DNA from: a virus
DNA: 64,000 nucleotides
Direction: 5' to 3' (one strand)
Virus record (IMG/VR): IMGVR_UViG_3300032156_000001
Coordinates: 62,001-126,000 of that record
The notes under the pieces are model-generated. The model searched no databases. It saw only the letters and a program-made list of their open reading frames with translations, and had not been told where the DNA came from. The translations under genes and the position numbers were made by a program. This document shows, piece by piece, positions 4,263-62,139 of this stretch. Within the stretch, counting starts at the first letter, position 1; each line of letters begins with the position of its first letter.

Positions 4263-4448
4263 ATGAAAAAGGACGGCGAAGTAAGGGCAGGGCAGACCCG
4301 CTGCGACCGCTGCGGCGCGGTGAGCGCCTCCGTTTCCGGCAAGGCGTGCCTCTGCAAGGGCCACGGCGCCAAGTCGGCTTCGGCGGAACCGGCGCTGAAG
4401 GCCGCCGCCGACAAGCTCGCGGAACTTCATAAGGCGAAGAGCCGATGA
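4263..4448 (+). CDS. Small zinc-ribbon-like protein
   Basis: This 61-residue basic protein has CDRC near residue 14 and a second Cys pair (CLC) about 14 residues later, a spacing typical of small treble-clef or ribbon zinc sites. The C-terminal half is Ala/Lys-rich and probably helical. It sits 4 bases after the previous gene, and its stop overlaps the portal start (ATGA), so it is part of the same operon. Confidence 0.6.
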   Translation: MKKDGEVRAGQTRCDRCGAVSASVSGKACLCKGHGAKSASAEPALKAAADKLAELHKAKSR

Positions 4449-6316
4449 TCGAGCCGCTTTCGGTTTACCCGATCCAGGGGCAGGCGATCTCGGCCGATCT
4501 TCAGAGCCGCTTCAGAGGCGCGTTCCCCGACCCGTACTGCGACTACGCCAGCACGCAGACGCCCCGCAGCATCTACGACGTGCTGCGCTGGTCGGAGTTC
4601 ACGTGGATGATCGACGGCACCTACAGGATGGCGTCGCGCCGCGTGGTCAGGTACTTCCTCACGAAGCTGGAGTTCACCGACGCCAGCGACGACGAGAAGA
4701 AGAAGTACAACGACTACCTCGAAGACACGATGAAGATCATGAGGATCCTGGCGCTCCTCGGCGACAACTTCATCTGCTACGGCAACGTCTTTGTGTCGCT
4801 GCACGTCCCCTTCCGCCGCTACCTGAAGTGCCCGAAATGCAACCTGGAGCGGCCGATCGGCAACGTCAACTACGGGTGGTCCGACTACAGCTTCACCGCC
4901 GAGTGCAAGTGCGGGTACAGGGGGCAGCACACGCGCGTAGACAGGCGCAGCGTGGAGGCCGACCCGCCCAAGGTGGTCTTCTGGCCGCCGCAGGAGATGC
5001 GGGTCCTGTACAACGTCCTGACTGGCGACTCGGCGTACTTCTGGCAGATCCCCGGCTACGTGCGCGATTACATCCAGCGGGGGAACAAGCACTATCTGGA
5101 AGGCACGCCGTGGGAGGTCATCGAGGCGGTCAAGCAGAACAAGCTGTTCCGCTTCAACGACGACGTCATCTTCCACATGCGCGACGACTCCATTGCTGGA
5201 CTCCGGCACTTCGGCTGGGGCATACCGATGATAATGGCCAACTTCAAGCTGGCGTGGTCGATCCAGGTGCTGAAGCGGTACAACCAGGCCATCGCCCTGG
5301 ATTACATCATCCCGTTCAGGGTCGTCACGCCGCATCCCGGCAACAGCCGCGAGTCGGACCCCGTGCTGCACGTCAACCTGGGCAGCTTCAACGCCAACGT
5401 GGCGGCCATGATGCGCAGGCACAGGCTGGACCCGACGCAGATCAACTTCTTGCCGTTCCCTATCGACTTCCAGATGCTGGGAGCGGAGGGGAAGAACCTG
5501 GCGCCGGTGGAGCTGATCGACAAGACCACCGACGAGCTGCTGAATGCGCAGGGCATCCCGGCTGAGCTGTACAGGGGGACGCTCCAGGTGCAGGCCATGC
5601 CGACGGCCCTGCGCCTGTTCGAGCGCACCTGGACGCACCTCGTCAGCGGCATGAACGAATTCCTGGATTGGTTCTGCAAGCAGATCTCCGAGATCCGCAA
5701 CTGGGAGAACCTGCACGCGCGCCTGCAGCCCACCACGCTGGCCGAGGACATCGAGCGCCGGCAGATCCAGCTCCAGCTCGCGGCCGGCAGCCAGATCAGC
5801 CGGCAGACCGCGTGGGCGCCCTTCGGCATCGAGTACAGGGAAGAGGTCAAGCGGATGCTGGAGGAGAACGCCTTCGCGCAGCGCGAGCAGCAGCGGTTCC
5901 AGCAGGAGCAGCAGCAGCAGGCGCTCATGGAGGACACGGTCTACCAGATCTCGTCCGGCCAGGCGCCCGCCGGAAACGACCCCAACGCGCAGGCCCAGGC
6001 GCAGCAGCAAGGACAGCCGGTCCAGCAAGGCCAAGCCGGCCAGCAGCAGGCTGCACCGGTCCAGCAAGCCGGCATACAGATCCTGCAGCCTGCCGCCGGC
6101 ACCACGCCGGAGGACATGCTGGCGCAGGCGGAACAGATCGCCGGACAGCTGCTCAACATGCCCTACGAACAGCGGCGCGTGGAGATGACCAAAATTAAAC
6201 GTGGAAATGAAACTCTTCACAGCCTAGTTTTGTCAAAAATGGATCAGATCCGGCAGCGCGCGCAGACCCTCGGCGGCTACCAGATGATCCCGCAGCTGAC
6301 GGGCGCTGCCCAGTGA
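4445..6316 (+). CDS. Putative portal (head-tail vertex) protein
   Basis: The 623-residue product has the layout of a phage portal protein: an N-terminal region with a conserved Gly-Asp-Asn...Tyr-Gly-Asn-Val-Phe segment, a central alpha/beta wing domain, a long amphipathic region near residues 265-300 that would fit the stem, and a Gln-rich C-terminal tail (residues ~475-540). Unusually, the wing carries a zinc-ribbon-like insert with Cys at 129, 132, 154 and 156. Portals form the dodecameric DNA channel of tailed-phage heads. The assignment is by overall pattern, and no terminase or capsid gene is recognised nearby. A short AT-rich patch at about 6187-6242 contrasts with the rest of the gene. 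Confidence 0.65.
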   Translation: MIEPLSVYPIQGQAISADLQSRFRGAFPDPYCDYASTQTPRSIYDVLRWSEFTWMIDGTYRMASRRVVRYFLTKLEFTDASDDEKKKYNDYLEDTMKIMRILALLGDNFICYGNVFVSLHVPFRRYLKCPKCNLERPIGNVNYGWSDYSFTAECKCGYRGQHTRVDRRSVEADPPKVVFWPPQEMRVLYNVLTGDSAYFWQIPGYVRDYIQRGNKHYLEGTPWEVIEAVKQNKLFRFNDDVIFHMRDDSIAGLRHFGWGIPMIMANFKLAWSIQVLKRYNQAIALDYIIPFRVVTPHPGNSRESDPVLHVNLGSFNANVAAMMRRHRLDPTQINFLPFPIDFQMLGAEGKNLAPVELIDKTTDELLNAQGIPAELYRGTLQVQAMPTALRLFERTWTHLVSGMNEFLDWFCKQISEIRNWENLHARLQPTTLAEDIERRQIQLQLAAGSQISRQTAWAPFGIEYREEVKRMLEENAFAQREQQRFQQEQQQQALMEDTVYQISSGQAPAGNDPNAQAQAQQQGQPVQQGQAGQQQAAPVQQAGIQILQPAAGTTPEDMLAQAEQIAGQLLNMPYEQRRVEMTKIKRGNETLHSLVLSKMDQIRQRAQTLGGYQMIPQLTGAAQ

Positions 6317-44685: not shown

Positions 44686-45426
44686 GTGTTGAAACAAGTT
44701 ATTACGGGATCGGGAGCCGCAAGCAAAACGGCCGCTTCCGTCAGCGGGGACGTTACCGCGTGGGCCGACCTGGACGGCGCGCTCGTACGGATGTCCGCGA
44801 CCTCTGTTGCGCACATTCACGGCGTCCTGGAGGGATACGACGGACAGACGGTCTATTTGATCAACGTTGGAAGTTTCGACATCTATATCGAGCACGAGTC
44901 CGCGATGGAACAGGTCGAAGCTAATCGGCTCCTTGCGCCAAACGAAGAGGCCCTGCTGGTTGGAACGGGCAAATCGACGCAGATAATCTACGATTCTGCC
45001 GTTGGGCGTTGGCGCATCTTTAGAGGGCGAGGCGACCCCGGCGATTCCGGAGCCAAAGGCGATCCCGGAGATCCCGGAACGCCCGGAGCCAAAGGCGATC
45101 CCGGAGATCCCGGAGCCAAAGGCGATCCCGGCGATCCTGGAACGCCCGGAGCCAAAGGAGATCCCGGAGATCCCGGCGATCCTGGAACGCCCGGAGCCAA
45201 AGGCGATCCCGGAGAGCCCGGAGATCCCGGCGATCCCGGAGCCAAAGGCGATCCCGGCGATCCTGGAGCCAAAGGCGATCCCGGAGATCCCGGAACGCCC
45301 GGAGCCAAAGGCGAGCCCGGAGATCCCGGCGCGAAGGGCGACAAAGGCGATACCGGCGATCCAGGCACGCCGGGTGCGGACGGACTGACGCAGGCGCAGG
45401 TTTTGGCGCGAGGAATGGGGGCGTGA
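44686..45426 (+). CDS. Collagen-like fibre protein
   Basis: The 246-residue protein uses GTG 44686 (AGGAGG upstream). An N-terminal ~110-residue globular domain is followed by about 35 Gly-X-Y triplets of GDPGDPG/GAKGDPG type, ending in a short tail. Collagen-like shafts are common in phage fibres and trimerise. The repeat DNA (45031-45380) is a GATCCCGG/GCCAAAGGC variable-number repeat that could vary in length. Confidence 0.75.
45031..45380 (+). repeat. Collagen-coding variable-number repeat
   Basis: Near-identical 9- to 45-bp blocks coding Gly-Asp-Pro-Gly-Asp-Pro and Gly-Ala-Lys are repeated through the shaft of the collagen-like gene. Their near-identity suggests recent expansion or ongoing slippage. 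Confidence 0.75.
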
Positions 45427-51926: not shown

Positions 51927-51950
51927 GGCCCTATGAAGGGGGAACGGCCA

Positions 51951-52784
51951 ATGGCGGAGGAAAAACCCATGCGAAAAGCCCTTCTTGTTGGCATCAACCA
52001 GTACAGCGCGCCGTACGCGCTGCAGGGCTGCGTCAACGACGTCATGGCGATGCGCAGCCTGCTGCGCGACTACCTGGGCTTCCCGGCGTCGGGCATCCTG
52101 ATCCTGAAGGACAAGCAGGCGACCACGAGGAACATCCTGAACGGCCTGAGGTGGCTGGCCAACATCAACGCCGGCGGCATCGCCCTGTTCCACTATTCCG
52201 GTCACGGCGCGCAGGTGCTCACCAGCGACCCCGGCGAGCCGGACGGATTGGCCGAGTGCATCTGCCCGGTCGACTTCAACTGGACGCCGCAGCGCATGAT
52301 CACCGACAAGCAGCTTGTCGCGGCGCTGGCGTTGCTGCCGTCCACCGCGGCTACGAACTGGTTGTCGGATTCCTGCCATGCGGGAGGACTGGACGAGACC
52401 GACCGCGGCGCCAAATCGCTCGCGACCGACAAGCGGACCCTGCGGCACATGATACTGCCGCCTGCCATGGCCGCCGAGGTGGAGCGCCTGAGGAAGAAGA
52501 AAAAGACCAAGGTGCGGACGATGGCGAAGTCGCTGAAGGCGGCGGAACTGGCCGTAGGCTTCATGGCGGCCTGCAGGGCCAACCAGACGGCGTCCGACAC
52601 GTACGAGGACGGTCGGTGGTGCGGCGCGTTCACGTGGGCGTTCCTGAAGGCCGTGAAGGCCAATACCCGCGCGGCGCTGACCGACCTCTGCGCGACCACG
52701 CGTTCGACCCTGTCGAAGGCGCGCTACTCGCAGGCCCCGCAGGTGGAAGGCACGAGGATCGACAAGCCGTTCCTGTCCTGGTGA
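51951..52784 (+). CDS. Caspase-like (C14/metacaspase family) protein
   Basis: The 277-residue protein has the catalytic dyad in HYSGHGAQ (His85) and SDSCHAGG (Cys142), an N-terminal strand ALLVGINQY followed by GCVNDV, and conserved C14 strand order. There is no obvious prodomain or effector domain. Caspase-fold proteases act in bacterial immunity and programmed death; a phage copy could process virion proteins or interfere with host defence. ATG 51951 follows GGGGGAACGG; ATG 51933 is an alternative. It has its own promoter and is followed by a holin-like gene. Confidence 0.8.
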   Translation: MAEEKPMRKALLVGINQYSAPYALQGCVNDVMAMRSLLRDYLGFPASGILILKDKQATTRNILNGLRWLANINAGGIALFHYSGHGAQVLTSDPGEPDGLAECICPVDFNWTPQRMITDKQLVAALALLPSTAATNWLSDSCHAGGLDETDRGAKSLATDKRTLRHMILPPAMAAEVERLRKKKKTKVRTMAKSLKAAELAVGFMAACRANQTASDTYEDGRWCGAFTWAFLKAVKANTRAALTDLCATTRSTLSKARYSQAPQVEGTRIDKPFLSW

Positions 52785-55764: not shown

Positions 55765-58700
55765 ATGCCCGACAGCGACCTTCCGCTCGGCCTCCCGGCC
55801 GCCCAGCCGCTCCAGTTGCGCCGCTTCGACGACCACCACGCCGCGCGCGTCAATATCCTGAACGGCGTCGTGTCGGCGCTGCAGGAGAAGTATCCCGTCG
55901 AGAACGAGCGGTACAGGTTGGAGCTTTCCGGCCTGCACTACAAGCAGCCCAACAGCTACTCGCTGGAGGAGCAGAAGAAGGCGATCATCCACGGCGACTC
56001 GCTGCACGCCAAGCTGCACGGCACGTGGGCGCTGATTGACAAGGCCAGCGGCAAGCCGGTAGACACCAAGGAGACCGTCGTGGCGCACGTGCCGTGGCTG
56101 ACCGAGCGCGGCACGCTCATCCACAACGGGTCCGAGTATTTAATAAGTTCGCAATTCCGTTTGAAGCCCGGCGTCTACTCGCGCATGAAGGACAACGGCA
56201 TCCTGGAGGCCCACGTCAACGTGAAGCCCGGGACCGGGCCGTCCTTCCGCGTCTACATGGAGCCGGAGACCGGCGTGTTCCGCATGGCGGTCGGGCAGTC
56301 CACGCTGAAGCTCTACCCGATCCTGCGATCCATGGGCGTGTCCGACAAGGAGCTGCGCGACGCCTGGGGCGAGGAGCTGCTGCACAAGAACGTCGAGGCC
56401 GAGGACCCGCGCGCGGTAGGCCGCGCGTTCGCGAAGCTGGTCGAGAAGCCCGTCGAGGAAGGGCACCCGACGATCGTGTCTGCCGCGATGCCGGAGCTGC
56501 CGAAGGCGGCCAGCGAGACGCCCGAGACGGTCAAGAAGCTGCAGAAGATCGTCGATGCGCACAAACTTAAAGGCGGATATGGCGACGTTGCCTGGGACGA
56601 GGAGACCGGCGAGACCCACCTGTCCGTCGGCGACTGGCACGAGCAGGAAGACTATGCCGGGCTTGAGAAGGCCATCAAGGCCGTCCCGGGCGTGAAGAAG
56701 TTCCAGGTCGAGGCGGAAATAGGTCCGCCCGACGGCTGGTGGGCCGTCAACCACGGTCGTGAGCCGAAGATCTGGCACAAGCCGAAGCCGCGCGATCCCG
56801 AGCAGGAAGCCGCATTCATGGCCAGCCTCGACGGGCCGCCGCTCAAGATTGTCGGGCAGACGCTCAAGGAGGCCCAGGCGCCGATCGGCCAGAAGACCAC
56901 GGACCGCAAGTGGAAGTACCTGTGGTTCCACGGCGAGCTGTACACGAACCCGCCCGACAAGGAGCACCCGGATCCGTGGGTGCTGCTGAAGGTCCACAAG
57001 GGCCTGCCGCAGGCCGCCTATGCCACGCTGAAGGGCGAGGGCGTCGACTGCGAGCCGCACTACGACGACCCGCACGTCTCCGTCCTGCGCGGCGAGGAAG
57101 TCCGCGAGCTCATAAAGAAGTATGGCGACCAGTGGCAAGGCGCGGCCAAGATCGGTCAGAAGATGCGCTTCCGCCTGAGCAAGATCGTCAGCCTCGTGCC
57201 GGGCGGCTGGCCGGAGATGGACCGCGTGTGGTTCATCGAGGTAGAGTCGCCCGAGCTGGAGGAGTACCGGAAGGACCTCGGCTTCCGCAATCTGCCGCTC
57301 CAGCCGAAGACTGGCAACGAGGTCAGGTTCCATGTCACTTTCGCCGTGAAGCCGAACGTCGCGAGCAAGGCCGCCGCGGCGCTGACCGAGCCGCCCGAGG
57401 AAGGGGCGACGGCGCCGGCGGTCAAGCCGCCCGGCGAGGAAGGCCGGAAGATCCTGCACGCGCTCCAGCAGATGGAGCTCGACCCCGACGTCACGGAGTC
57501 GACGCTAGGCGAGCGGCACGTGAACGTGACGCCGAAGATGATGGTCCGGGCGACAAAGAAGCTGCTGGGCATCCAGAAGGGGACCGAGGAGACCGACGAC
57601 CGCGACTCGCTGGCCTACCAGACGCTGCACTCGCCGGAGGACTTCTTCGCGGAGCGGATCAGGCGCGATGCCGGCGGGCTGGGCAGGCGGATGCTGTGGC
57701 ACGCGACCAGGAAGGGCAACCTCGACTACGTCCAGAGCGGCGCGCTGACGCCGCAGATGCACGCCGTCCTGCTGAGCAGCGGGCTGGCCGCCGCGGCCGA
57801 GGAAACGAACCCGCTCGAGCTGGCCGATCAGCATCATCGCGTCGTGCGCACGGGCGAGGGAGGGATGTCGTGTTATTCGGAAGATACCGAAGTGCTAACG
57901 ATAGAAGGATGGAAACACTGGGGAACCGTCGTCGCTGCTGACGAACTTGCCTGTCGGGTGAACGGTCGGTTGGAGTTCCACCGACCGACGCGTCTTTTTA
58001 GCGGCGCATATCGCGGAAAGCTCTTATCTGCCGATACCCGGGTGATCAACTACGCGGTTACTCCGGATCATAGGGTGTTCGTGTCTTGGGATACGACGAC
58101 GGCCGGCCACGAATCGGTTCGGTCTCCGTTCCGGTTTCGGCCGGCTTTCGATATCCACGGCAAAAGAGTGCGGCATTTGGTTTCCGCTGAACCGTATCTG
58201 GGTGGCAGCCGGCCGGACAAACACGTTTTGCCGCCTGCGCCCGTTGACCGGGAAAACGCAGGATCCGCGAGAAGAGAGGCACTAGAGCTTGATTTTCTGG
58301 ACTGGGTGGAGTTCCTCGGTTGCTACCTGGCTGACGGCAGTTTCAGGTACGATGGCGACCGGCACGAATACCGAACGGAAGTTGGGAAAGTCCGATCATT
58401 GAATCCTGGCGAATACGCTACGATTGACGCCGTTTTGCGCCGATTGGGATTCACTTACAGATATGAGCAGAATCGTCGGTTTATCGTTCACGGGAAACAT
58501 CTGGCACACTACTTGTCGAAGTTTGGTAAAGCATGGACGAAGTACGTGCCGGAATACGTGATGCGCGGCGATATAGAAACGCGAAAGCGTTTCTTCTTTG
58601 CCATAACGACGATGGATCACACGGCGGCGTGCCCTGGACTGTCCTTCAAATATATGTCCGCTTCACCTAAGCTGGCCGAGCAGGTGGCTTGGCTGGCTGT

Positions 58701-61700
58701 TTCTCTCGGATACGCAGTTCACTACCTGACTCGCGTCAACCACAACAGGACCAATCCGATACATGTCATTCATATTTCTGAAGCCTCGGAAAGTCTCGTC
58801 TATCGGCAACACGCCGGCTTGCAGTATCGTGAACTTGATTATGCTGGAACGGTCTATTGCGCGTCTGTTCCTGGGGAGCTGGTATTTATACGTAGACACG
58901 GAAAAACGATGTGGTGTGGCAACTCCTTAGATGCAGTCCCCGAGGAGGCCAGGGTGGTGCAGCCGTCCCACTTCGGCTTCGTCGATCCGAGCCGCGCGCC
59001 CGAATCTGCAAGAATGGGTTTGGACAGCAGGATCGCCCACGGCGCGCTGCGCGGCAGCGACGGCCAGGTCCATGCGCCGATGCTGGACCTGAAGACCGGC
59101 AAGACCGAACTAGTGTCCGCGGCGCAGGCCGTCAAGAGCGTGGTCGCGTTCCCCGGCGAGATGGCCAGGACCGGCGCCACCGCCCGCGCCATGGTGCGCG
59201 GCAAGCGCATCGAGAACGTGCCGAAGGGCGAGGTGGACTTCGAGCTGCCCCACCACGCGCACATGTTCTCCGGGGTGACGAACCTCGTCCCCATGGCCGG
59301 CGCGCTGAAGGGCGGCCGGCTCATGATGGGCGCGAAGTTCTTCAGCCAGGCGCTGCCGCTCCAGCACAGCGAGGCGCCGCTGGTCCAGAACCTGTCGCCG
59401 GACGGCCGCAGCTTCGACGAGATCATGGGCGAGAAGGTCGGCGCGGTGCGGGCGGCCAAGCGCGGCGTCGTTATCGGCATCGACAAGAACAAGGTCCTCG
59501 TCCGCGAGGAGGGCGGCGGCAAGCGCGAGTACCCGCTGTACGACAACTTCGTCTTCAACAGGCGCACCGCGATCCACAACACGCCCGCCGTCGGCATCGG
59601 CGAGACGGTCGAGCCGGGCGCGCTGCTGGCCAGGAGCAACTATACGGACGCCAAGGGCGACACGGCGGTCGGGCTGAACTTGCGGACCGCGTACATGCCG
59701 TTCAAGGGCCTGAACTACGAGGACGCCGTCGTCATCAGCGAGAGCGCCGCCCAGCGGCTCAGCTCCGAGCACATGTTCCAGCGGACGCTCGAGAAGGACG
59801 ACCGCGACATGGAGTTCGGCAAGAAGCCGTTCATGTCGGTCTTCCCGGCCAAGTACGTCAAGGACCAGCTGGGCCGGATGGACGAGCACGGCGTGGTCAG
59901 ACCCGGGACCGTCGTGAAGAAGGGCGACCCGCTGATCCTCGGCATGGAGAAGACGCGGTTCACGCACACGCACCGCGGCCACAAGCCCATCTACACCGAC
60001 GCGTCGGAGACGTGGGACCACGAGGCGGACGGCACCGTCACGGACGTGTCGCCCACCAAGGGCGGCGGCTGGAACGTCACCGTGAAGACGTACCTGCCGG
60101 CGCAGACGGGCGACAAGCTGGCCGCGCGGTTCGGCGACAAGGGCGTCATCTCCGAGGTGATGCCGGACCACCAAATGCCGCACGACTCGCAGGGCAGGCC
60201 CATCGAGCTGTGCCTGAACCCGCTGGGGGTCATCAGCCGCGGCAACCCCGCGCAGGTCTACGAGGCGCTGCTGGGCAAGATCGCCCGGAAGACCGGGCGC
60301 GCGTACGTGGTGCCGTCCTTCCGAAACGGCAGCTGGATCGACTTCGTCCAGGGCGAGCTGCGCAAGAACGGCCTGAGCGACACGGAGGACCTGACCGACC
60401 CCTCGACGGGGACGAAGATCCCCGGCGTCCTGACCGGCGAGCGCTTCATGATGAAGCTGCACCATACCGCCGAGTCGAAGGGCAAGGGCAGGGACGTCGG
60501 CAGCTACACGTCGGAGGGGCTGCCCGCCATAGGGAGCAAGCGGATAGGCCAGATGGAGACCAGCGCGCTGGTCTCGCACAACGTCATGGACGTGCTCAAG
60601 GACGCCAAGCTGGTCCGCGGCCAGAGGAACGACGACTACTGGCGCGAGTTCCGCATGGGCAACGTGCCCGCGTCGCCGCAGACGCCGCTGGTCTACAGGA
60701 AGTTCCTGGCCAGCCTCACGGGCGCCGGCATCAACGTGAAGAAGGAGGGCAACAAGCTCAACCTGTTCGCCCTGACGGACAAGGACGTCGACAAGCTCAG
60801 CGCCGGCGAGGTCAAGGCCCCGCATACCGTCGCCGGCAACGATCTCGCGGAGATAGAGGGCGGCCTGTTCGACAAGGGGCTAACGGGCGGGCATGGCGGT
60901 TCGCGGTGGAGCCACGTGAATCTCGACGAGCCGACGCCCAACCCCGTCATGGAGGAGCCCACTCGCAGGCTGCTCGGCATGACGCAGAAGCAGTTCGAGG
61001 CGGCCATCTCGGCGCGCGGCGGCCAGGGGATCAAGGACGCGCTCTCGAAGATGGACGTGGACCGCGAGATCACTCGGTACGAGGACGAGGTCAAGACGGG
61101 CGCGCGGTCGCGGCGCGATAACGCCGTGAAGTGCCTCGGCTATCTTGAGGCCATGCGGACGCAGGGTTACAAGCCGGAAGAGCTGGTGATGTCGAAGGTC
61201 CCCGTCCTGCCGCCGGGCATGCGCCCCATCGTCCCGTTCCAGGGCAGGCCGCTGGTGTCGGACCCGAACTATCTGTACCGCGACCTGATGCACGCGAACC
61301 AGGATCTGAAGGACGCGAAGGGCGAGCTCGGCGCGGAGCGCGCCGGCGCAGAGCGGCTACGGCTGTACAACGCCTTCAAGGCGGTGACCGGCCTGGGCGA
61401 CCCCGTGCAGGCGAAGACCCGCGAGGCCAACGTGCGCGGCCTGCTGGCGCACGTGTTCGGGACCGGCGGACCCAAGACTTCGATGTTCCAGCGTCGTGTC
61501 CTCAGCACGCCGGTGGACGTGGTCGGGCGCGCGGTCATCACGCCGAACCCGCAGCTGTCGATGGACCAGGTCGGCCTGCCCGAGGAGAAGGCCTGGACGA
61601 TCTACAGACCGTTCATAACCCGCAGGCTGATCCGGCGCGGCATGCCCGCCACCGAGGCCGCGCGCGCCGTGGCGGACAGGCACCCCACGGCGAAGAACGC

Positions 61701-62139
61701 GCTGCTGGAGGAGATGCAGGCCCGGCCCGTCCTCATCAACCGCGCGCCGACGCTGCACAAGTACGGCTTCATGGCGGCGTGGCCGACGCTGGTGAAGGGC
61801 GACACGCTGCAGATCTCGCCGGTGGTGACGCCGGGCTTCGGCGCGGACTTCGACGGCGACGCGATGAACTACCACGTGCCGGTGTCCGACGCCGCCGTCC
61901 GCGAGGCCAAGGAGAAGATGCTGCCGTCGGCGAACTTGCGCGACGTCCGCGGGTTCAAGCTGCACTACCTGCCTCGACACGAGTTCCTGCTTGGGCTATA
62001 CTTGGCCAGCACGGCGGACAACCGCAACGAGCCGCGGTCGTTCCGCACGAGACAGGACGCGCTGCGCGCCTACCGCCGCGGCGAGCTCGGGCTTGGCGAC
62101 CGCGTGGCCACGCTGGACGAAGGGGAGAAGAAGAAATGA
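55765..62139 (+). CDS. RNA polymerase beta/beta-prime fusion with intein
   Basis: The 2124-residue product joins a beta-like part (ISSQFRLKPGVY near residue 131, GEGGMS then VVQPSHFGFVDP around the fork region, NYEDAVVISE, catalytic GDKLAARFGDKGVIS with K1451 and K1459) to an N-terminal beta-prime part (VLPPGMRPIVP, NRAPTLHKYG, ADFDGD with D2028, D2030, D2032). It stops about 75 residues after ADFDGD, so bridge helix and trigger loop must be encoded elsewhere. A 351-residue intein (residues 703-1053) and a 2H-phosphoesterase-like insert (H437-x-S, H523-x-T) interrupt beta. Together these suggest a virus-specific, split multisubunit polymerase. Confidence 0.85.
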   Translation: MPDSDLPLGLPAAQPLQLRRFDDHHAARVNILNGVVSALQEKYPVENERYRLELSGLHYKQPNSYSLEEQKKAIIHGDSLHAKLHGTWALIDKASGKPVDTKETVVAHVPWLTERGTLIHNGSEYLISSQFRLKPGVYSRMKDNGILEAHVNVKPGTGPSFRVYMEPETGVFRMAVGQSTLKLYPILRSMGVSDKELRDAWGEELLHKNVEAEDPRAVGRAFAKLVEKPVEEGHPTIVSAAMPELPKAASETPETVKKLQKIVDAHKLKGGYGDVAWDEETGETHLSVGDWHEQEDYAGLEKAIKAVPGVKKFQVEAEIGPPDGWWAVNHGREPKIWHKPKPRDPEQEAAFMASLDGPPLKIVGQTLKEAQAPIGQKTTDRKWKYLWFHGELYTNPPDKEHPDPWVLLKVHKGLPQAAYATLKGEGVDCEPHYDDPHVSVLRGEEVRELIKKYGDQWQGAAKIGQKMRFRLSKIVSLVPGGWPEMDRVWFIEVESPELEEYRKDLGFRNLPLQPKTGNEVRFHVTFAVKPNVASKAAAALTEPPEEGATAPAVKPPGEEGRKILHALQQMELDPDVTESTLGERHVNVTPKMMVRATKKLLGIQKGTEETDDRDSLAYQTLHSPEDFFAERIRRDAGGLGRRMLWHATRKGNLDYVQSGALTPQMHAVLLSSGLAAAAEETNPLELADQHHRVVRTGEGGMSCYSEDTEVLTIEGWKHWGTVVAADELACRVNGRLEFHRPTRLFSGAYRGKLLSADTRVINYAVTPDHRVFVSWDTTTAGHESVRSPFRFRPAFDIHGKRVRHLVSAEPYLGGSRPDKHVLPPAPVDRENAGSARREALELDFLDWVEFLGCYLADGSFRYDGDRHEYRTEVGKVRSLNPGEYATIDAVLRRLGFTYRYEQNRRFIVHGKHLAHYLSKFGKAWTKYVPEYVMRGDIETRKRFFFAITTMDHTAACPGLSFKYMSASPKLAEQVAWLAVSLGYAVHYLTRVNHNRTNPIHVIHISEASESLVYRQHAGLQYRELDYAGTVYCASVPGELVFIRRHGKTMWCGNSLDAVPEEARVVQPSHFGFVDPSRAPESARMGLDSRIAHGALRGSDGQVHAPMLDLKTGKTELVSAAQAVKSVVAFPGEMARTGATARAMVRGKRIENVPKGEVDFELPHHAHMFSGVTNLVPMAGALKGGRLMMGAKFFSQALPLQHSEAPLVQNLSPDGRSFDEIMGEKVGAVRAAKRGVVIGIDKNKVLVREEGGGKREYPLYDNFVFNRRTAIHNTPAVGIGETVEPGALLARSNYTDAKGDTAVGLNLRTAYMPFKGLNYEDAVVISESAAQRLSSEHMFQRTLEKDDRDMEFGKKPFMSVFPAKYVKDQLGRMDEHGVVRPGTVVKKGDPLILGMEKTRFTHTHRGHKPIYTDASETWDHEADGTVTDVSPTKGGGWNVTVKTYLPAQTGDKLAARFGDKGVISEVMPDHQMPHDSQGRPIELCLNPLGVISRGNPAQVYEALLGKIARKTGRAYVVPSFRNGSWIDFVQGELRKNGLSDTEDLTDPSTGTKIPGVLTGERFMMKLHHTAESKGKGRDVGSYTSEGLPAIGSKRIGQMETSALVSHNVMDVLKDAKLVRGQRNDDYWREFRMGNVPASPQTPLVYRKFLASLTGAGINVKKEGNKLNLFALTDKDVDKLSAGEVKAPHTVAGNDLAEIEGGLFDKGLTGGHGGSRWSHVNLDEPTPNPVMEEPTRRLLGMTQKQFEAAISARGGQGIKDALSKMDVDREITRYEDEVKTGARSRRDNAVKCLGYLEAMRTQGYKPEELVMSKVPVLPPGMRPIVPFQGRPLVSDPNYLYRDLMHANQDLKDAKGELGAERAGAERLRLYNAFKAVTGLGDPVQAKTREANVRGLLAHVFGTGGPKTSMFQRRVLSTPVDVVGRAVITPNPQLSMDQVGLPEEKAWTIYRPFITRRLIRRGMPATEAARAVADRHPTAKNALLEEMQARPVLINRAPTLHKYGFMAAWPTLVKGDTLQISPVVTPGFGADFDGDAMNYHVPVSDAAVREAKEKMLPSANLRDVRGFKLHYLPRHEFLLGLYLASTADNRNEPRSFRTRQDALRAYRRGELGLGDRVATLDEGEKKK
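57871..58923 (+). mobile_element. Intein with LAGLIDADG-type endonuclease remnant
   Basis: The element begins at Cys703 (CYSEDTEVLT) and ends ...MWCGN with Asn1053, followed by Ser1054, matching intein splice residues (Cys1, C-terminal Asn, +1 Ser). A FLGCYLADGS block at residues ~850-859 matches the first LAGLIDADG motif. Removing it joins GEGGMS to SLDAVPEEARVV, aligning with the beta fork-loop-2 region. The segment is clearly more AT-rich than the flanking exteins, which indicates recent acquisition. Confidence 0.85.

Follow-up and report, generated by a model that had tools for sequence, protein, structure and literature searches.

Evidence for a 2H phosphoesterase domain inserted in the beta2/lobe of a multisubunit-type phage RNA polymerase

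Introduction

Multisubunit RNA polymerases (RNAPs) rank among the most conserved enzymes, and 2H phosphoesterases usually trim RNA ends or destroy signalling nucleotides. Here we analyze a viral gene in which the two appear to be joined: an RNAP chain with a predicted 2H domain inserted in its beta part, encoded in a 64,000-nucleotide stretch of DNA (positions 62,001 to 126,000 of IMG/VR record IMGVR_UViG_3300032156_000001), hereafter the window. The closest described polymerases are those of the multimeric-RNAP-encoding Caudovirales (mReC), reported by Weinheimer and Aylward (PMC7481178). The window resembles these in its alignable beta/beta' motifs and large tailed-phage genome, and the related polymerases of Salmonella phage Arash and Vibrio phage D69 are single-chain enzymes. 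It differs by the 2H insert in the beta2/lobe and by an intein. Neither the word “insert” nor the word “intein” occurs in the main text of PMC7481178.

Phage 2H domains have been described in several other settings. Acb1 (PMC9117128) is a phage protein with a 2H fold and a pair of HxS/T motifs, features shared by the window domain, which is built into a polymerase rather than free-standing. Acb1 is further characterized by the base-stacking residues Y12, W74, F107, and W147 and by E141. In polyvalent proteins, 2H domains are joined to varying enzyme domains such as SET and HAD; fusions with MuF or with portal proteins of phages are on record, and for these domains Iyer et al. predicted a role as RNases or in anti-signalling (PMC5512222). 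The polymerase studied here shares this habit of changing partners, but the carrier is a multisubunit-type RNAP. In jumbo phages, 2H enzymes have been credited with clearing cyclic ends (PMC7824862, PMC9503650).

Results

The insert ends in a 2H domain

The original prediction placed a 2H-like domain in the polymerase on the basis of two motifs 86 residues apart, HVSV (H437) and HVTF (H523). Both were found at these positions in the frame of the RNAP gene. The pair alone is nevertheless weak evidence, because the RNAP holds eight motifs of the form H-x-[ST]-hydrophobic, and at least one pair spaced by 60–110 residues occurred in 16% of 2000 shuffled RNAPs. We therefore dropped the motif pair as a stand-alone signature, and it is the profile, the fold, and the conservation that uphold the assignment.

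The Pfam family 2H-SAK (PF22547, Swiss Army Knife 2H phosphoesterase) matched the insert with E = 1.1e-7; its score of 32.6 bits exceeds the cut-off of 27, and the match spans profile positions 34–121 of 124. The same profile scored above its cut-off in three related polymerases (L009, L012, and L089) and in non-RNAP homologues. Score and the two HxS/T motifs thus liken the window copy to this family, from which it differs by lying inside an RNAP. We found no paper that explains “SAK” in Pfam's usage.

An AlphaFold2 model of the domain, built from six aligned relatives (mean predicted local distance difference test (pLDDT) score = 69; predicted template modelling score = 0.63), shows the beta/alpha order of the 2H fold, in line with the alternation of strands and helices noticed earlier. 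H437/S439 and H523/T525 fall on predicted strands E71–75 and E156–162 of the domain model. When the model was compared with known structures, as the original prediction had suggested, the matches were almost exclusively 2H enzymes. After re-alignment, the 38 highest-ranking PDB matches all belonged to the 2H superfamily bar two rows, a trypanosome mitoribosomal chain, and this chain was also the only departure from 2H proteins among rows with Z ≥ 3.5. Acb1 ranked first (7t26; Z = 6.0, 3.3 Å over 110 residues), followed by the phage BCSR5 phosphodiesterase (Z = 5.8), the penguinpox cyclic GMP-AMP (cGAMP) phosphodiesterase (Z = 5.7), and mouse hepatitis virus ns2 (Z = 5.4); human Usb1 and LigT scored 5.0 and 4.7. 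These model-based Z values are moderate and tied, and the uniform 2H make-up of the list outweighs any one of them. The fold match would place the two His residues near each other at a single pocket. Among the predicted viral structures of BFVD, a protein called Swiss Army Knife 2H ranked fourth, with probability 1.00, and Acb1 proteins came lower down. A profile search of PDB sequences reached drCPDase with E = 0.49 at best, and in PHROGs the window protein matched phrog_12204, to which no function is assigned there.

Because the curated profile, the predicted fold, and the conservation described below agree, the assignment of the end portion of the insert to the 2H superfamily, and by score to 2H-SAK, is supported. 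With its top Z value tied with those of other 2H enzymes, the modelled domain is not established as an Acb1. The original prediction knew of no such fusion; nor did we find a 2H–RNAP fusion in the open-access literature searched, a scope outside which most subscription papers lie.

The insert lies in the beta2/lobe of an mReC polymerase

The carrier matches Pfam RNA_pol_Rpb2_6 (E = 9.5e-48) and Rpb1_2 (E = 5.6e-24), and a PDB sequence search returned bacterial beta and beta' chains. It is 33–35% identical to the single-chain RNAPs of Arash and D69, compared with which it has two big additions, an intein (residues 703–1053) and the insert (residues ~229–556, a length of ~328). The absence of the latter segment from both phage enzymes bears out the claim that the domain sits within the beta part. 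With an alignable core, a DFDGD motif, and a portal gene in the record, the enzyme is, on its sequence, an mReC polymerase. It is the single polymerase of this kind in the source record, a viral contig 188,118 bases long, and the remainder of beta' is encoded by its own 614-aa open reading frame (ORF) downstream, beyond the window (128.3–130.2 kb of the record).

A model of residues 1–701, based on 62 aligned relatives (pLDDT = 78), matched two bacterial structures, the B1–B2 region of Mycobacterium tuberculosis RNAP beta (4kbj, Z = 19.6) and, with Z = 14.1, a lobe fragment of E. coli (beta2-betai4, 3lti), with low-confidence linkers flanking the insert at residues 229–251 and 540–544. The insertion point corresponds to the RPGEPKTAD stretch of bacterial beta, at ~251/252 in Enterococcus numbering; the beta sequence used for this mapping was that of L005 (OR846602.1, hit H5). 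The L005 record, although labelled as an Enterococcus phage, contains host-type rpoB and rpoC and is probably a bacterial contig. In established RNAP structures, the beta2/lobe borders the downstream DNA, far from the RNA exit channel. We also considered whether the insert could be part of the intein and rejected this, as the two are separate segments, the insert ends in unconserved linkers, and it has no intein-family match.

Table 1. Features of the window discussed in the text (nucleotide positions of the window; residue numbers of the RNAP).
Feature	Coordinates	Strand	Basis
Portal protein, upstream of the RNAP gene, same strand	4445-6316	+	Arash portal match, E=2e-64
SNF2-type helicase + LigD-like 3'-phosphoesterase + ATP ligase, 1346 aa	19455-23495	+	
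Phage RNAP ORF, beta + N-terminal beta' in one chain, 2124 aa	55765-62139	+	Pfam, PDB sequence matches
Beta1/beta2 (protrusion, lobe), residues 1-228, ahead of insert	55765-56448	+	Fold model, pLDDT mostly >90
Insert, residues 229-556, in beta2/lobe	56449-57432	+	Gap-length census of relatives
Small alpha/beta segment, no known family, residues 250-355, variable part of insert	56512-56829	+	
2H phosphoesterase domain, residues 387-530	56923-57354	+	PF22547, fold matches, conservation
First catalytic motif HVSV (H437, S439)	57073-57084	+	
Second catalytic motif HVTF (H523, T525)	57331-57342	+	
Beta continues, residues 557-702	57433-57870	+	Alignment with relatives
Intein, residues 703-1053 (Cys1 ... 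Gly-Asn, then Ser), apart from 2H insert	57871-58923	+	Gap vs Arash/D69
Beta' catalytic DFDGD	61846-61860	+	Sequence; D2028/D2030/D2032 invariant; ORF stops shortly after

Intact 2H inserts are confined to one clade and keep both motifs

Relatives of the domain were reached only via the polymerase core and alignment A3; the 2H domain alone as query gave no match in named phages, in IMG/VR (as a single sequence), or in GTDB genomes (as an alignment). An IMG/VR scan with the polymerase core gave 185 relatives and a second scan with four carriers gave 103, with 80 kept in each case. In the resulting census of 107 sequence-distinct entries having both flanks, a few of which are overlapping pieces of one contig, the insert site was shorter than 50 residues in 94. 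An intact 2H insert was found in the window, L009, L010, L012, L089, and L094 (L013 is identical to L012 here). Both HxS/T motifs were unbroken in all six of these RNAP-inserted sequences and in four non-RNAP homologues too. In five carriers, the RNAP-borne 2H is the only one of its genome.

In the tree of polymerase cores, from which L094 was left out, the carriers and L011 form one group (Shimodaira–Hasegawa-like approximate likelihood ratio test = 98). L011 lacks the 2H domain and has a short Cys/His segment in its place, so that one gain and one loss are enough to explain the distribution. The clade is deep, with core path lengths of ~1.1 changes per site; the 2H domains of the carriers are 43–53% identical to that of the window, a bit lower than their cores. 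Between L010 and L094, the nonsynonymous rate (dN) was 0.160 in 2H and 0.157 in the N-terminal part of the RNAP, with the synonymous rate (dS) saturated.

The segment ahead of the 2H domain differs from carrier to carrier: alpha/beta in the window, HAD in L009, SET + HAD in L012, SET in L089, and Cys-rich in L010 and L094. Several effector domains thus share one RNAP in some carriers (SET + HAD + 2H, SET + 2H, and HAD + 2H in L012, L089, and L009), the window itself having 2H and the unassigned segment. For the latter, we found no Pfam match, no tblastn match in phages, and no second copy in 15 records. The HAD domains of L009 and L012 are nearest to the BT0820 family, which led us to drop the idea that HAD and 2H form a PNKP-like pair for RNA 3'-end healing. 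As a separate observation, the Cys-rich inserts of L010 (6384–6689) and L094 show an iron-sulfur-like C-x2-C ... C ... C pattern, which recurs in L110 (4863 onwards) in a protein following the gene for the beta' C-terminal part.

A second lobe site holds 2H copies that lack both histidines

Polymerases L059–L062 and L191–L198 carry a homologous 2H domain in the lobe, ~25 residues beyond the site used by the window clade, with neither catalytic His. An hhalign comparison supports the homology (probability 96.8, E = 2.9e-10), and the dead copies group separately from the intact ones. On these sequences, two independent arrivals in the lobe are likely, within the limits that long branches set on such reasoning. 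The dead 2H of the L062/L059 pair evolves under purifying selection (dN/dS ~0.05).

The same 2H subfamily occurs in separate genes and, in one cousin, in a ligase fusion

Ten more mReC records were scanned with the 2H profile, three of which (G005, G006, and G008) had been picked for known hits. A single match was obtained in six of the ten, and in three of the seven that were not pre-picked. In G008 the match lies in the RNAP and is a dead copy. The non-RNAP 2H genes, found in five records, each lie 4–17 kb upstream of the RNAP gene on the same strand. Their products are varied: 2H is the N-terminal domain of a 667-aa protein encoded right after the portal gene (G005 and L138), forms a 195-aa protein that lacks the His residues and is followed by a separate SET gene (G006 and L176), or is part of 491- and 472-aa proteins with DUF5661 (G010 and G011). 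In L176, the dead 2H gene (462–1046) adjoins the SET gene (1289–1732) ~6 kb upstream of an RNAP gene that has no insert; in L089 and L012 both kinds of domain are fused within the RNAP. The intact RNAP-inserted copies read VHKGL or IHKGL where the non-RNAP copies have VPNA, VPQA, or VPTA. The presence of a single 2H per genome, either in a separate upstream gene or in the RNAP, is what one would see if a nearby gene had been relocated into the polymerase, and we infer from the sequences that 2H probably moved there from such a gene.

The sixth record with a match, G014, encodes a 946-aa protein that combines 2H, a LigD_N 3'-phosphoesterase, a KxDG ATP ligase (OB matched weakly), and an inorganic pyrophosphatase. 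Over 501 aa, its phosphoesterase–ligase part shares 42% identity with the helicase–phosphoesterase–ligase ORF of the window, in which a helicase replaces 2H. This cousin recalls the RNA-end healing sets of phages, composed of 2H, phosphatase, and ligase (PMC7824862, PMC9503650); in the window, by contrast, 2H resides in the RNAP, the phosphoesterase–ligase in another gene, and the ligase is LigD-like. The fusion in G014, together with the presence of both parts in two proteins of the window, favours nucleic-acid end processing. The window ORF also shows a weak zinc-peptidase match at its C-terminus.

Other features of the locus and its relatives

The RNAP gene shares its strand with portal and tail genes. 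Upstream of it, the window encodes a caspase-domain protein (51930–52784; Peptidase_C14, E = 2.9e-30; caspase in PADLOC), an unusual phage cargo, and in the tail region a collagen-repeat protein (44686–45426). Inteins occupy several differing sites of mReC polymerases: beside that of the window, they occur in L089 and L094 and, homologous to the window intein, in L033, L034, L043, L052, L066, L071, and L082. In Vibrio phage D181 (L004, 2429–7943), the annotated RNAP gene is split in two, with a homing endonuclease in the middle, in contrast to the unbroken gene of D69.

Discussion

We propose that the window polymerase carries an autonomous and, judging by its intact motifs, probably active 2H-SAK enzyme in a surface loop of its beta2/lobe. 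The enzyme would ride the polymerase as tethered cargo outside the transcription cycle; cargo is suggested by the position of the lobe, on the side of the downstream DNA and away from the RNA exit channel, and by other mReC RNAPs that lack 2H. The changing partners of the domain (HAD, SET + HAD, SET, and Cys-rich), as read from sequence, also appear to count for cargo behaviour. The enzyme would hydrolyse, without metal, 2',3'-cyclic phosphate or like ends of RNA that host defence nucleases have cut, and such end healing would prepare the ends for ligation. Taken in its entirety, and with end healing its first choice, this proposal stands in our view at an even balance. Healing of RNA or nucleic-acid ends, considered as a function by itself, is a tentative favourite that falls a little short of that balance.

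Several observations weigh against the proposal. The domain model is of moderate confidence (pLDDT 69), and its best Z value of 6.0 lies in the middling range of the tool. The five carriers, whose records are perhaps incomplete, yielded no RNA ligase above the cut-off, no RtcB, and no KptA; weak RNA_ligase matches were seen in G001, G003, and G004. The ligase that is linked to 2H resembles the DNA ligase LigD, and DNA is the usual substrate of LigD-type enzymes. The purifying selection on dead copies indicates that a lobe 2H can persist without catalysis. Finally, Iyer et al. (2017) argued against a tie between RNA ligases and the 2H domains of phage polyvalent proteins (PMC5512222).

The fold cannot pick among the functions on offer, because Acb1, cyclic-dinucleotide, RNA-end, and 2'-5' enzymes tie (Z = 4.7–6). 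Our second choice is a distinct activity, the hydrolysis of cyclic oligonucleotide alarm signals: like Acb1 or the viral cGAMP phosphodiesterases, the lobe 2H would destroy the signals of the cyclic-oligonucleotide-based anti-phage signalling system (CBASS) or of type III CRISPR early in infection. The three best fold matches are enzymes of this sort, Acb1 itself works with an HxT/HxT tetrad (PMC9117128), and the role is among those predicted for polyvalent-protein 2H domains (PMC5512222). Yet Z gaps below 1 are ties, with RNA-end enzymes close behind, and one cousin's partner is a 3'-phosphoesterase–ligase. Moreover, no sequence match to the Acb1 family was obtained, and none by PADLOC, although PADLOC is a library of defence rather than counter-defence. 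We regard the destruction of defence nucleotides as possible but on balance unlikely.

A part in transcription itself, with 2H acting on the RNAP's own transcripts or on backtracked RNA, or sensing nucleotides to regulate transcription, would suit a domain that keeps its site and its motifs throughout a deep clade and that recurs, dead, further along the lobe of a second one. Such a part is improbable, given the distance of the beta2/lobe from the RNA exit, the freedom from inserts of most mReC RNAPs, and the lack of 2H in the clade member L011. What remains of the functional possibilities falls to a passive insert, that is, a lineage-specific spacer for partner binding like E. coli beta-i4, in which catalysis is a relic. 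Bacterial beta lobes do have lineage-specific inserts, and other mReC RNAPs retain dead 2H domains, under purifying selection where tested, but the window clade keeps both His and both Ser/Thr residues at ~50% identity and a plain spacer needs neither, so we hold this to be quite improbable. That the motifs arose by chance in an ordinary lobe insert without any 2H domain, as the frequency of such pairs among shuffled sequences might suggest, is highly improbable and is contradicted by the PF22547 score, the fold matches, and the conservation.

The tethered-enzyme proposal can be extended by a conjecture on delivery. If the RNAP were packaged in the virion, 2H would enter the host along with the DNA. 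The lobe might then hold swappable counter-defence or repair enzymes (2H, HAD, or SET) on a polymerase that is virion-borne or among the earliest made. Virion delivery is attractive because other phages are known to have virion RNAPs and because the gene shares a strand with those for portal and tail; as a general account of these polymerases we consider it rather unlikely.

To judge from its sequence, the window encodes a beta lobe with another enzyme of nucleic-acid chemistry built into it, one that is seemingly active, and we found no report of such an arrangement. The occurrence of one 2H subfamily as a separate gene, a ligase fusion, an RNAP insert, and a dead RNAP copy provides a natural series, which lets one ask for what reason phages attach an enzyme of this kind to their polymerase. 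The window 2H is a concrete candidate for an enzyme of counter-defence or RNA repair, in a phage group that is large and little studied. Should the polymerase indeed serve as a delivery vehicle, transcription and protection would begin in one molecule.
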